Shown here: positions 9,929 through 14,531 of the stretch, piece after piece
How the letters are laid out: every line of letters starts with the position of its first letter
How positions within the stretch are numbered: position 1 is the stretch's first letter
Assembly (NCBI GenBank): GCA_002798255.1
Contig: NWQQ01000006.1
Span: forward strand, 1 to 64,000
Origin: Lysobacteraceae bacterium NML95-0200
Lineage (GTDB): Bacteria; Pseudomonadota; Gammaproteobacteria; Xanthomonadales; Xanthomonadaceae
Length of the DNA: 64,000 bases
Direction: 5' to 3'
Made by a program: the position numbers and the translations under genes
The notes under the pieces: model-generated
Told to the model about the DNA's origin: nothing
The model's input: only the letters and a program-made list of their open reading frames with translations
Databases searched by the model: none

Positions 9929-10693
9929 ATGAGCGATACCGCCTTTTTGCTGATTTCACTGCGCCCGCGCGGCGAGCACCAGCCGCTGCGAGATGCGGCC
10001 AGACGCCGTGGCGGGCAGGTTTTGGCGCTCTCACCCTGGCAGATTGAACAGTTAGCCGATGCGCCTGCGCGCACCGCACTGACCCGGGCAATGGCCTGCC
10101 CGCAGGTGATTTTTACAAGTCCTGCCGCCGTCAAGGCCGCTGCGGCGCTGGCGGCGTTCAGCCCGCCCTGCCGGACGCAATGCCTGGCCGTAGGCGAAGG
10201 CACACGCCGCGCCCTGCTGCGCGCGGGCCTGCAGGATGCCATCGCCCCGGCACGGATGGACAGCGAAGGTTTACTGGCACTGCCTGCGCTTGCCGGATTG
10301 GGCGCAGGCGCGCAGGTTGGGCTGGTCACCGCCCCCGGTGGTCGTGGTGAAATCCTGCGCCAGTTGCAGGCGCGCGGCATCGGCGTGCAGCGTGCCGATA
10401 TCTACCGGCGCAAACCGCTGCCGCTGTCCGCACGCGATCACGCACGCCTTGCCCAAGGCCTGAACGCAGACAGGCTGCAGTATCTGGCGCTTTCCAGTGG
10501 CGAGGCGTTTGAACATATCCTTGCCCTGCTGCCCGATACACTCTTGTCAACATTGCGCGAGAAGGTCGGCATCATCGCTGCCAGCGCACGCCTTGCCGAG
10601 CTTGCCCGCCAACAAGGCTTCACTGTCCACGCCATTGCTGCAAGCGCCCGCCCCGGCGATTTGCTTGCTGCGCTCCAACACCCGGAAAATTGA
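9929..10693 (+). CDS. hemD: Uroporphyrinogen-III synthase
   Basis: This 254-aa enzyme closes hydroxymethylbilane with D-ring inversion to uroporphyrinogen III in tetrapyrrole synthesis. Sequence conservation in the family is weak, but the layout is typical: LLISLRPRGEHQPL at the start, FTSPAAVKA, AVGEGTRRALLRAG, QVGLVTAPGGRGEILRQLQARG and a final IAASARLAELARQQGF. ATG 9929 (MSDTAF) is chosen rather than a frame opening at 9842. The stop TGA shares its last base with the polA ATG, so the two are coupled. No hemC lies upstream here. Confidence 0.88.
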   Translation: MSDTAFLLISLRPRGEHQPLRDAARRRGGQVLALSPWQIEQLADAPARTALTRAMACPQVIFTSPAAVKAAAALAAFSPPCRTQCLAVGEGTRRALLRAGLQDAIAPARMDSEGLLALPALAGLGAGAQVGLVTAPGGRGEILRQLQARGIGVQRADIYRRKPLPLSARDHARLAQGLNADRLQYLALSSGEAFEHILALLPDTLLSTLREKVGIIAASARLAELARQQGFTVHAIAASARPGDLLAALQHPEN

Positions 10694-13434
10694 TGAAAAA
10701 ACTGGTTCTGATTGATGGCTCGTCCTATCTGTATCGTGCCTTCCATGCCCTGCCGCCGCTGAGCAATGCCGCAGGCGAACCGACCGGCGCGCTGTTTGGC
10801 GTGGTCAACATGCTGCGCAGCCATATCAAAGAGGCGCCCGATTACATCGCCTTTGTGATGGATGCGCCCGGGCCGACCTTCCGCGATGCGCTGGATGCCC
10901 AGTACAAGGCCAACCGCCCGCCGATGCCGGAGGATTTGCGCGCGCAGATCGAGCCGCTGATGGCAATCGTCGCCGCACTGGGGTTGCCAATTCTGCGCCA
11001 GGGCGGGGTCGAGGCCGATGATGTCATCGGCACCTTGGCGCAGCAGGCCGCCGAAACCGGCGTAGCGGTCATCATCTCCACCGGCGACAAAGACATGGCG
11101 CAACTGGTACGCCCCGGCGTGGCGCTGGTCAACACCATGACCGGCAGCCGCATGGACAGCCGCGAGGCGGTGATGGACAAGTTCGGCGTGCCGCCCGAGC
11201 GCATCGTCGATTATCTGTCGCTGATGGGCGACAAGGTGGACAACATCCCCGGCGTGGACAAATGCGGGCCGAAAACCGCCGCCAAATGGCTGGCCGAATA
11301 CGGCTCGCTCGATGGCGTCATCGAAAACGCGGCCAATATCAAGGGCAAGGTCGGCGACAACCTGCGTGCGGTGCTCGCGCGGCTACCCCTGAACCGCAAG
11401 CTTGCCACCATCCGCACCGATGTGGAGCTGCCGCAGCGCTTTGATGCGCTTACCCCGGGCGCCGCCGATGAAACGGCGCTGCGCGCGCTGTACAGCCGCT
11501 ATGGCTTCAATCAGGCGCTGAAAGAGCTGAACGGCGCAAGCTCTGCCCACAGCGGCAAAGCCGCCACTGGCAACATCCGCATGCCGGCAGAAAAGCCAGC
11601 CAGCGCCATCGACCCCGCACTCAGCGTCAAAGGCCACTACCAGACCGTGTTGCGCCGGGAGGAGCTGGATGCCTGGCTTGCAAAACTTGAGCTCGCCACG
11701 CGCTTTGCCTTCGATACCGAAACCGACAGCCTGGATGCCATGCAGGCCAATCTTGTCGGCATCAGTCTTGCCACCACGGTGGGCGAAGCCTGCTATATCC
11801 CGCTGGCGCATCAATATCCCGGTGCACCAGCGCAATTGCCGATGAGCGAAGTACTCGATGCGCTGCGGCCGTTTTTTGCCGATGCCGGCAAACAGAAAAT
11901 CGCCCAGAATGGCAAATACGACCTGCATGTGCTGCGCCGCCACGGCGTTGAGGTGACAGGTCTTGCCGATGACAGCCTGCTGCAAAGTTTCGTGCTCGAT
12001 TCCACCCAGCGACACGATATGGACAGCCTGGCCAAGCGCCTGCTGGGCATCGACACCATTGCTTACAGCGATGTCGCCGGCAAGGGTGCCAAGCAAATCT
12101 CGTTTGCCGAAGTGCCGTTGGAGGCAGCCACCCAATATGCTGCCGAAGATGCCGACATCACCCTGCGACTTGCACAGGCACAGACGACGCAGCTGGCCGA
12201 AGCGCCCGCGCTTGCCCGGGTGTACCGGGAAATCGAAATGCCGCTGCTGCCGGTACTGGCGCGTGTCGAGGCGCATGGCGTACTGATTGACAGCGAGGAG
12301 CTGCGCCGCCAATCAGCCGATCTTGGCCGGCGCATGCTTGATGCCCAGCAGCGCGCCACGGACATCGCCGGACGCAGCCTCAACATGGATTCGCCCAAGC
12401 AAATCGGCGCCCTGCTGTATGACGAGCTGAAACTGCCAGTATTGGTGAAAACCCCGGGCGGCGCGCCCTCCACCAACGAAGAGGCCCTGGAGGCCATTGC
12501 CGATCAACACGAGCTGCCACGCATCATTCTGGAATATCGCGCCCTGACCAAATTGCGCAATACCTATACCGACAAACTGCCGGGCATGATCAACCCGGAT
12601 ACCGGCCGGGTGCATACCAGTTACAACCAGGCCGGCGCCGCCACCGGGCGGCTGGCCTCCTCCGACCCCAACCTGCAAAACATCCCGATTCGCAGCGAGG
12701 ATGGCCGCCGTATCCGTCGCGCCTTCATCGCTGCCCCCGGCTGCCAGTTGCTGGCCTGCGACTACTCGCAAATCGAGCTGCGCATCATGGCACATCTGTC
12801 CGAAGACCCGGCCCTGATTGCCGCCTTTGAAAAAGGCGCGGACATCCACCGCGCCACCGCCGCCGAAGTGTTCGGCAAGCCCATGGATGAAATCAACAGC
12901 GATGAACGCCGCGCCGCCAAAGCCATCAACTTCGGCCTGATTTACGGCATGAGCGCCTTTGGCCTGGCGCGCCAGTTGGGCGTTAGCCGCGGCCAGGCAC
13001 AGGACTATATCGCGCTGTATTTCAGCCGCTATCCCGGCGTGCGCGATTACATGGAGCGAAGCCGCGAGCAAGCCCGCGGCCAGGGCTTTGTGGAGACCGT
13101 ATTTGGCCGCCGCCTGTATCTGCCGTATATCCACTCACGCAACCAGGCACAGCGCGCCGGTGCCGAACGCGCCGCCATCAACGCACCGATGCAAGGCACG
13201 GCAGCGGACATCATCAAGCGCGCGATGATTTCAATTGACGACTGGCTGCAAGGCCAGGCGCAACGCGCACGGATGATCATGCAGGTGCATGACGAACTGG
13301 TATTCGAGGTGGAAAATGACTTCCTGCCCGAACTGACCGCCGAGGTCAGCCGCCGCATGAGCGCCGCTGCCGAGCTGCGCGTGCCACTGATTGTGGACTG
13401 CGGCAACGGGCAAAACTGGGACGAAGCTCACTAA
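10693..13434 (+). CDS. polA: DNA polymerase I
   Basis: This 913-aa enzyme has all three domains. The 5'-3' exonuclease runs from about 1 to 290 (LIDGSSYLYRAFHALPPL, DYLSLMGDKVDNIPG). The 3'-5' proofreading exonuclease is intact, with D341 and E343 in FDTETDSL. The polymerase has motif A DYSQIELR (D690), the O-helix around KAINFGLIYG and motif C VHDELVFE (D867). It removes RNA primers and fills gaps in repair and lagging-strand synthesis. The ATG overlaps the hemD stop by 1 nt. A putative sRNA gene lies directly downstream. Confidence 0.98.
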   Translation: MKKLVLIDGSSYLYRAFHALPPLSNAAGEPTGALFGVVNMLRSHIKEAPDYIAFVMDAPGPTFRDALDAQYKANRPPMPEDLRAQIEPLMAIVAALGLPILRQGGVEADDVIGTLAQQAAETGVAVIISTGDKDMAQLVRPGVALVNTMTGSRMDSREAVMDKFGVPPERIVDYLSLMGDKVDNIPGVDKCGPKTAAKWLAEYGSLDGVIENAANIKGKVGDNLRAVLARLPLNRKLATIRTDVELPQRFDALTPGAADETALRALYSRYGFNQALKELNGASSAHSGKAATGNIRMPAEKPASAIDPALSVKGHYQTVLRREELDAWLAKLELATRFAFDTETDSLDAMQANLVGISLATTVGEACYIPLAHQYPGAPAQLPMSEVLDALRPFFADAGKQKIAQNGKYDLHVLRRHGVEVTGLADDSLLQSFVLDSTQRHDMDSLAKRLLGIDTIAYSDVAGKGAKQISFAEVPLEAATQYAAEDADITLRLAQAQTTQLAEAPALARVYREIEMPLLPVLARVEAHGVLIDSEELRRQSADLGRRMLDAQQRATDIAGRSLNMDSPKQIGALLYDELKLPVLVKTPGGAPSTNEEALEAIADQHELPRIILEYRALTKLRNTYTDKLPGMINPDTGRVHTSYNQAGAATGRLASSDPNLQNIPIRSEDGRRIRRAFIAAPGCQLLACDYSQIELRIMAHLSEDPALIAAFEKGADIHRATAAEVFGKPMDEINSDERRAAKAINFGLIYGMSAFGLARQLGVSRGQAQDYIALYFSRYPGVRDYMERSREQARGQGFVETVFGRRLYLPYIHSRNQAQRAGAERAAINAPMQGTAADIIKRAMISIDDWLQGQAQRARMIMQVHDELVFEVENDFLPELTAEVSRRMSAAAELRVPLIVDCGNGQNWDEAH

Positions 13435-13490
13435 ATGAGAAATTCATGCCGAATCCGGCGTTCAAATTCAGCCTGTATCCATGTCCATCG

Positions 13491-13499
13491 TGTTTAACT
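13491..13499 (+). promoter_or_regulatory. Candidate extended -10 promoter of the polA-downstream sRNA
   Basis: TG-T-TTAACT has the extended -10 form and lies 7 bp before the first stem of the putative sRNA. No good -35 is visible. Confidence 0.35.
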
Positions 13500-13505
13500 A
13501 GCGCC

Positions 13506-13630
13506 CGTCAGATGCAATGTCTGACGCAGATCACTCCCTCTCCCCTGGAGTCGATCTTGGCGCGGCACCCCTCCCCAAGATGCCGCGTTCTCCTCCGCCC
13601 CGCCCGGCTCCCCCTCCGGCGGGGCTTTTT
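13506..13630 (+). ncRNA. Putative sX13-like small RNA with three C-rich loops and intrinsic terminator
   Basis: The region between polA and metF folds into four consecutive hairpins. Stem 1 is CGTCAGA/TCTGACG (13506-13526). Stem 2 is GATC-ACTCC/GGAGT-GATC with one bulged C (13529-13556), loop CTCTCCCCT. Stem 3 is CGCGGCA/TGCCGCG (13561-13587), loop CCCCTCCCCAAGA. Stem 4 is GCCCCGCC/GGCGGGGC followed by TTTTT (13597-13630), loop CGGCTCCCCCTCC, a textbook intrinsic terminator. Three pyrimidine-only or C-rich loops in a row, about 120 nt in all, just after polA, match what I recall of Xanthomonas sX13, which pairs its C-rich loops with G-rich mRNA leaders. Identity is inferred from structure and position, not alignment. 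Confidence 0.75.
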
Positions 13631-13706
13631 AATGCCCAAACCCATAAAATCACATTTATCTTGATAAAGCGATACAATTGCCGCCTTTCTCAATCAGGCC
13701 GCCGCG

Positions 13707-14531
13707 ATGCTCCCCATCAGCTTTGAAATCTATCCCCCCAAAAACGATGCGCAGCACGCCCAACTGCAACGCACCCTGGAAAAGCTCAAGCCCTACCGGC
13801 CGCAATTCATCTCCTGCACCTATGGCGCAGGCGGCTCAACCCGCGAACACACTGCCGAAACCGTGCAGCTGCTGAGCAGCGAGCATGGGCTGGAGGGCGT
13901 ACCGCACCTGACCTGCATCGGCAGCACCCGCGAGGAAATCATCGCGCTGCTGGCGCACTATCAGCAACAAGGCGTGCGCCGTATCGTCGCGCTACGCGGC
14001 GACATGCCTTCGGGCATGCTCGCCCCGGGCGAGCTGCGCCATGCCAGTGACCTGGTGGCGCTTATCCGCGACGCATTTGGCCAGCACTTCCATATCGAAG
14101 TCGCCGCCTATCCGGAAACCCACCCGCAGGCCCGCGATGCTCTGGCTGATATCGAAAACTTCAAGCGCAAGGTCGATGCCGGTGCCGACAGCGCCATCAC
14201 CCAATACTTTTACAATGCCGATGCCTATTTCCGCTTTGTCGATGATGTACGCGCCCTCGGCGTGAAAGTGCCGGTAGTGCCCGGCATCATGCCGATTTCC
14301 AACTTCAGCCAGCTGCAACGCTTTTCCGAAAGCTGCGGCGCGGAAATCCCGCGCTGGGTGGTGCAGCGGATGCGCGCCTTCGGGGATGATGGCAGCGCAA
14401 TCCGCGAGTTCGCCGCTGACCTGGTCGCCTCACTCTGCCAGCGTCTGCTTGCCGGTGGCGCACCGGCATTACACTTCTACACACTGAACCTTGCCCGCCC
14501 GGTGAGCAATATTTTGAAGCGTTTGCAGTAA
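13707..14531 (+). CDS. metF: 5,10-methylenetetrahydrofolate reductase
   Basis: This 274-aa flavoprotein reduces 5,10-methylene-THF to 5-methyl-THF for methionine synthesis. The family signature is clear: SFEIYPPK at the N terminus, ISCTYGAGGSTREHT, HLTCIG, RRIVALRGDMP, VAAYPETHP and FKRKVDAGADSAITQYFYN. Length is slightly below E. coli MetF (296 aa) but the domain is complete. No SAH or SAM riboswitch is recognisable upstream; that space is taken by the putative sRNA and about 75 bp of leader. Confidence 0.97.
   Translation: MLPISFEIYPPKNDAQHAQLQRTLEKLKPYRPQFISCTYGAGGSTREHTAETVQLLSSEHGLEGVPHLTCIGSTREEIIALLAHYQQQGVRRIVALRGDMPSGMLAPGELRHASDLVALIRDAFGQHFHIEVAAYPETHPQARDALADIENFKRKVDAGADSAITQYFYNADAYFRFVDDVRALGVKVPVVPGIMPISNFSQLQRFSESCGAEIPRWVVQRMRAFGDDGSAIREFAADLVASLCQRLLAGGAPALHFYTLNLARPVSNILKRLQ

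Follow-up and report, generated by a model that had tools for sequence, protein, structure and literature searches.

The 64,000-nt stretch of DNA analysed here (the window) carries, on its forward strand shortly downstream of polA, a genuine and ordinary member of the sX13 family of small RNAs. The reading that best accounts for the data as a whole, to which we give a probability of about three in four, is that this is a trans-acting sRNA transcribed from its own promoter just after polA, that its C-rich loops repress target mRNAs, and that in much of the family the gene is under ECF-type control. Comparison with relatives suggests, moreover, that the textbook outline of the sX13 family misses the first hairpin. 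The features of the locus are the following:

10690-13434, + strand: polA (DNA polymerase I); open reading frame, NF004397 at 1160 bits (cut-off 720)
13467-13500, + strand: putative promoter region, TTCAGCCTG (13467-13475) and GTTTAACTA (13492-13500); by-eye match to the family block
13506-13630, + strand: predicted transcript of the sX13-family sRNA; match to RF02232 and to family model R1 (see below), fold z
13506-13526, + strand: hairpin 1 (5' hairpin, GCAA loop); covariation, folds in 111/112 family loci
13528-13557, + strand: hairpin 2, loop CUCUCCCCU at 13538-13546; fold, covariation
13559-13589, + strand: hairpin 3, CCCCUCCCCA (13568-13577) in and at the loop; fold, covariation
13597-13630, + strand: hairpin 4, intrinsic terminator with U5 tail; fold, covariation
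13707-14531, + strand: downstream neighbour, methylenetetrahydrofolate reductase gene; open reading frame, TIGR00676 at 339.9 bits (cut-off 293.7)

An Rfam scan matched RF02232 (sX13) over its full length (model positions 1-115) to 13516-13631 with 58.9 bits (E 1.9e-8), and at gathering thresholds this was the only Rfam match within the window. The initial annotation had proposed an sX13-like sRNA after polA and had named a hit of the sX13 covariance model as support; the match obtained exceeds the gathering score of 50 bits, and the polA open reading frame ends at 13434, 71 nt before the first stem and on the same strand. Other marks of sX13 are also present: three stem-loops carry loops with four, four and five C residues, and the host is probably a member of the Xanthomonadaceae, to judge from the closest named relatives of the polA product, those of Lysobacter and Thermomonas (68-69%). 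Across the 2.38-Mb genome from which the window comes, RF02232 gave one match over the cut-off and one other, on contig C2, of 18.5 bits, which resembles a plain terminator and was rejected as a second sX13. A sigma-70-like site (9/12) lies at 13649-13678, past the terminator of the sRNA and ahead of the methylenetetrahydrofolate reductase gene.

The minimum free energy of 13503-13633 was -55.4 kcal/mol compared with a mean of -37.4 (sd 3.09) in 200 dinucleotide shuffles, none of which folded as well (z = -5.83). Folding confirmed the four consecutive hairpins that had been read at 13506-13630, three with C-rich loops and the last a terminator. The loop of hairpin 1 is GCAAU (13514-13518), that of hairpin 3 in the minimum-energy structure is CCCCA (13573-13577) and that of hairpin 4 is CUCCCCCU (13608-13615), the latter within a stem-loop of 13597-13625 followed by U5 at 13626-13630; hairpins 2 to 4 thus expose CUCCCC, CCUCCCC and CUCCCCC. 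Since four hairpins with three CCC loops were also reached by 13 of 500 composition shuffles, the C-rich loops alone are not overwhelming evidence at this base composition. The family comparison is: at least three CCC loops were found in 112/112 family loci and in 3/112 composition shuffles. A simple terminator scan of the + strand from 13300 to 13800 returned no terminator, yet the stem and U5 tract are plain; presumably the stem and loop of hairpin 4 fall outside the pattern of that scan.

RF02232 matched 113 of 119 genomes drawn from the family of the window (E<=1e-3), in 89 of them over the cut-off. From the 117 matches, 112 loci of 108 genomes were examined (G057, G067, G080, G084 and G086 were left out), and polA lay upstream on the same strand in 103 of them. 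Two of the four loci of the window's genus scored under the Rfam cut-off (38.6 and 37.1 bits). RNAalifold run on the first family alignment missed stem 1 and gave only a few pairs of stem 2; both losses were put down to misalignment by MAFFT, and a seed of 18 well-aligned family sequences that include the 5' hairpin was then used for model R1, which in the window locus matches 13502-13632. In an alignment of 101 matches fitted to R1, and so biased towards the structure of the model, 97.1% of cells pair, and two-sided changes are seen at 35 of the 38 pairs in the stems as a whole. The absence of stem covariation among relatives, which the initial annotation had said would count against its proposal, was therefore not what was seen.

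The 5' hairpin was also studied in an alignment that had not been fitted to the model. The stretch from -16 to +14 nt around the Rfam start folds at -8 kcal/mol or below in 111/112 family loci (mean -15.0), a value reached by 29% of composition shuffles of the same stretch. Of the 108 distinct sequences, 99 entered this plain MAFFT alignment, the other nine being omitted as close to retained rows. The 10-bp stem has 93.2% of its cells paired there, whereas shuffles reach 82.8% and slid stems no more than 51.4%; nine of the ten pairs change on both sides, and double-change cells number 121 where shuffles average 36. GCAA at the apex is conserved in 110/112 loci. The hairpin had been described initially as an addition that is not part of sX13; its family-wide folding and covariation contradict this, and on the same grounds we rejected a species-specific fourth hairpin.

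The Rfam model begins with AAcgcc..., inside the loop of hairpin 1, and its 5' arm is absent from the model. According to PMC3771888, sX13 has 115 nt and starts 175 nt after polA, and the Rfam start lies 173 nt after polA in the two top-scoring family genomes, from which we infer that the published RNA also begins inside this loop. The literature thus lacks hairpin 1 because both the Rfam model and, by this inference, the published RNA begin in its loop. In PMC3771888 the 115-nt transcript is described as having an unstructured 5' region and three C-rich loops, and an sX13 shortened by 14 nt from its 5' end is reported to retain complementing activity. On the present interpretation the 14 nt removed correspond to the 3' arm of hairpin 1, whose partner is missing from the 115-nt transcript, and a revised 5' end changes how the "unstructured" region is to be understood. 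The annotated 5' end of sX13 looks either misplaced or the product of processing in the loop.

Upstream of hairpin 1 many family members carry CTTCACGAAC-YATCCATG...TGGTCATATAG, and the window elements TTCAGCCTG and GTTTAACTA were aligned by eye with the family block TTCACGAAC...GGTCATATAG, of which they are a degenerate version. The E. coli RpoE -35 box is GGAACTT and its -10 requires a cytosine (PMC8103513); GGAACTT...TCTA occurs outright in some divergent family members, such as L188. A loose ECF motif (GAAC-N17-19-TC) was present in 78/112 family loci and in 9/448 control windows, while 200 sets of dinucleotide shuffles of the family loci gave a mean of 5.2 and a maximum of 12. The strict form (GAACT-N16-18-TC[AT]) was found in 42/112 loci compared with 0.57 in shuffles and 0/448 control windows. 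These results point to ECF control as a trait of the sX13 family. The loose motif was absent from all four loci of the window's genus, the window included, the nearest approach by eye being CGAA in G079, and ECF control may have been lost in this genus. The genome nevertheless encodes RpoE (278 bits, curated cut-off 236), and upstream of its own rpoE the sequence GGAACTTTT...GTCC, by eye, fits the loose motif but not the strict one. By eye, the conserved -10-like element stops some 6-8 nt short of the foot of hairpin 1 and about 20 nt short of the published 5' end; it would place the transcription start at the foot of hairpin 1, with a predicted 5' end at about 13502-13507. Second family copies of sX13 in G004 and G110 (L176/L303 and L168/L304), with no polA seen nearby, have a clean GAACTA...GTCTGAT block.

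Two other readings of the hairpin run were weighed. A palindrome at the start site is a common operator layout, so that the published 5' end could be the true one and the upstream half-repeat a DNA-only operator; the published RNA is as long as the Rfam model (115 nt), and that model starts in the loop. An operator, however, should keep its letters, whereas these arms change letters and stay complementary, G-U pairs included; the GCAA apex is conserved as well, and the -10-like element is placed for a start at the hairpin foot rather than at the published end. We rejected the operator on the covariation of the 5' hairpin and regard it as improbable. Less credible still is that the run is the 3' UTR or terminator of polA and no independent RNA. 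The hairpins do lie only 71 nt after polA on the same strand, but all stems show double-sided changes, the unpaired C runs are conserved, a conserved promoter-like block separates polA from the RNA, and in copies L301-L305 no polA was seen within about 2 kb. There are in addition the experimental data on sX13 in Xanthomonas (PMC3771888) and its detection in RNA-seq of Xylella cells (PMC12189769). A mere polA terminator was thus rejected on stem covariation, family synteny and the copies away from polA, and an independent sRNA with four hairpins is the reading retained below.

sX13 is stated in PMC3771888 to occur exclusively in Xanthomonadaceae. Searched over 80 named polA loci (623 kb), R1 gave 30 matches at E<=1, of which 29 lay on the + strand downstream of polA; outside L033-L038, eight loci matched at E<=0.01. 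A second model, R2, was built from 33 sequences, of which 18 came from neither L001-L038 nor the family genomes and none from loci titled Pseudomonas or Halopseudomonas. Of its 41 matches at E<=5, 40 lay downstream of polA, and 32/80 loci matched at E<=0.01; the 48 loci with no match at this level include Colwellia, Burkholderiales and Methylomonas. Matches outside its seed included Sedimenticola (L043, 5e-11), L065 (8e-7), a member of the Woeseiaceae (L063, 3e-6) and L079 (6e-6). Among whole genomes of the class, 73 of 168 matched R2 (E<=1e-3; 64 family labels by count), three from the window's family and 70 from outside it, and 95 had no match. The distribution is patchy, since in a phylum-wide draw R2 matched 16/150 genomes (four of the family, one of the order and two others of the class). 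At gathering thresholds Rfam named no such RNA in 16 of 17 loci and identified the remaining one (L112) as ErsA.

Sixty-seven of the 70 non-family matches were examined (G223, G250 and G262 were left out). polA was upstream on the same strand in 38 and engB convergent downstream in 48; one or both lay within the fetched stretch in 60/67, although the search was blind to place. The strict promoter motif, which is outside the model, preceded 45/67, compared with 0.29 in shuffles and 5/264 control windows. The named polA loci other than L033-L038 gave 31 R2 matches, 22 of them with the strict motif (0.19 in shuffles). In the 80 named loci GAACT-N14-18-TCNNA occurred 24 times in the 65.7 kb downstream of polA on the + strand, against 17 times in the 429 kb of preceding + strand and 23 times in the 623 kb of the opposite strand. 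Two or more CCC loops precede the terminator in 54/67 matches, in 10/335 shuffles and in 2/396 control windows, a count that is partly circular because the model favours such loops.

Some loci contain tandem rows of these RNAs. Three copies were seen in Salinisphaera L094 (5744-6296), L038 (5908-6614) and L049 (5807-6371), most of them with their own GAAC block upstream by eye, and four copies in G269 (contig C33, 13149-13905). In L222, L238 and L255 the sX13-like RNA lies between engB and polA on the strand opposite to polA. Second R2 matches in G010, G029 and G071 (L296-L298) lack, by eye, the 5' hairpin and the GAAC block and were discarded as false friends; each is a C-rich double hairpin that closely follows what looks like the end of an ORF, and together they resemble a separate C-rich element of 3'-UTR type.

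How these RNAs relate to known families was examined with a third model, R3, made of 48 sequences from outside the window's family; its seed might include a pseudomonad. R3 matched the window at 47.7 bits (E 1.9e-8), and with the terminator removed the window still scored 13.2 bits in the right place. Eight of ten pseudomonad polA loci were matched (R2, E 3e-5 to 3.5e-3; R3, 3e-6 to 8e-5), and in five of six of these eight, Rfam placed an overlapping RF01719. Of three Spot 42 loci R3 matched two at E 0.006 and all three with filters off, whereas R2 gave 13.8-15.6 bits. With the terminator removed R3 found no match in ErsA locus L112 (with filters off or by default) or in Spot 42 locus L082; as the match vanishes in one locus each, ErsA and Spot 42 were rejected as demonstrated homologues. 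Neither RF01719 (>50 bits) nor RF00021 (>80 bits) matched the window at gathering thresholds or in a permissive scan, which for RF01719 covered 13430-13710.

ErsA (Pseudomon-1, RF01719) shares with sX13 the polA-engB locus, a 5' hairpin and a C-rich terminator loop, and it resembles the sX13 family in promoter type, with GAACTT...GTCAGA upstream in L112; ErsA is reported to be driven by sigma-22 (PMC8575079). It differs in that an unstructured, U-rich domain separates the first stem-loop from the second (PMC8575079), and the window RNA differs from it in lacking an ErsA-type ECF (sigma-22 type) promoter, even in the form of the loose motif. Spot 42 (RF00021) is likewise placed between polA upstream and yihA/engB downstream (PMC3295665) and has a GCCCC...GGGGC terminator, but it has no C-rich loops in L082 and no ECF motif was found in the three loci. 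The link of ErsA to sX13 thus rests on terminator, place and promoter type, and that of Spot 42 on terminator and place. Common descent with sX13 is plausible for ErsA, at about even odds, and for Spot 42 has about one chance in five. The remark in the initial annotation that ErsA too maps beside polA gains from the common locus and promoter type; upstream of the terminator it found no counterpart in the one ErsA locus tested. Among the papers listed from the literature covered, which includes few subscription journals, none was recognised as joining sX13 with ErsA or giving sX13 an ECF promoter.

Outside the class, Rfam scans of four loci identified two as ar14 (RF02344), and L291 and L295 matched no family. 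ar14 resembles the window RNA in its hairpins with C-rich loops and matches the window at 29.6 bits, which is under the RF02344 cut-off of 58.8; no polA was seen in the examined stretches of two ar14 loci. Three ar14 copies stand in a row in L292 (1160-1634), from a genome outside the class, paralleling the rows of sX13-like RNAs. The alphaproteobacterial ar7 also adjoins polA, and its structural likeness to sX13 has been noted (PMC3771888).

The wider comparison bears on two further alternatives. The RNAs elsewhere in the class could be convergent C-rich hairpin RNAs and no relatives of sX13: the models also match ar14 and, at E 1e-6 to 3e-5, the C-rich double hairpins L296-L298, which lie close to the ends of ORFs; the terminator contributes much of the score, and more than half of the class genomes (95/168) have no match. 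Against this, 60 of the 67 matches examined lie by polA or engB although place played no part in the search, and they share a promoter that the models do not contain. R3, built without family sequences, moreover reaches 47.7 bits in the window, with the reservation that R2, whose seed did include family sequences, was used to fit the R3 alignment. We consider convergence unlikely. The same grade of doubt applies to the view that the promoter block is of ordinary sigma-70 type and resembles an ECF promoter by chance. sX13 is described as highly expressed (PMC3771888), and the ECF motif is missing from the window and from the other three loci of its genus; against this stand the strict motif in 45/67 non-family loci, with 0.29 expected by shuffling, and ErsA, which has such a motif at the same locus and is reported to be sigma-22-driven (PMC8575079). 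Relatedness to sX13 and an ECF-type promoter in much of the family are accordingly the readings we prefer.

By comparison with its relatives, the RNA consists of four conserved, covarying hairpins. The first gives it a structured 5' end, and the annotated start of sX13 falls in the loop of this hairpin. Hairpin 1 most likely protects the 5' end of the primary transcript and may be cut in its loop. The C-rich, anti-Shine-Dalgarno-like loops would pair with G-rich ribosome-binding sites and block translation with no need of Hfq, as suggested by work on Xanthomonas, in which GGGG is frequent around the start codon of the mRNAs that sX13 represses, mutations of the loops or of the target G motifs each remove repression, and Hfq is dispensable for sX13 action (PMC3771888). 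In the same report a mutated loop combined with a mutated target did not restore repression, so that direct pairing is likely but unproven. In much of the family, and in the polA-engB RNAs of other Gammaproteobacteria, a promoter of sigma-E (ECF) type would switch the RNA on, and we propose that the RNA is therefore a repressing arm of the envelope-stress response. In the window's genus the promoter appears to have drifted, and sigma-E control is perhaps weakened or lost.

The loops of the window RNA would be complementary to strong Shine-Dalgarno sites. The only known target checked was hfq. With its start called crudely, 12 of 22 relatives have GGGG in the hfq leader; in the window's genome the gene appears to start with GTG after GAGGAACATC, and this leader (L269) has no GGGG, so hfq may not be a target there. 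Compared with sX13 (RF02232) of Xanthomonas campestris pv. vesicatoria, the window RNA has the same locus after polA, three C-rich hairpins and terminator; the published 5' end of the former lies inside the loop of a further hairpin, while in the window's genome the hfq leader lacks GGGG and the promoter is degenerate. By analogy the mechanism of sX13 likely carries over to the window RNA, and the list of targets need not.

sX13 RNA is more abundant at 37 C, in high salt and in minimal medium (PMC3771888), and the sections of that paper covered here do not give its regulator. The presence of an ErsA-type promoter before sX13-like RNAs in many families bears on the control of the virulence-linked sX13. 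Tentatively, and at slightly less than even odds, sX13, ErsA and the unnamed RNAs of some sixty other gammaproteobacterial families may descend from one ancestral sRNA gene that has kept its place between polA and engB under the envelope-stress sigma factor. Many lineages would have lost it, while others multiplied it into tandem rows of up to four copies, and in Spot 42 the C-rich loops would have disappeared and the mode of control changed. A broader model could unite RNAs that are now unnamed or split by Rfam. If this descent is true, they would form an ancient non-coding branch of the sigma-E response with a patchy survival among lineages, known so far only as separate lineage-specific RNAs.
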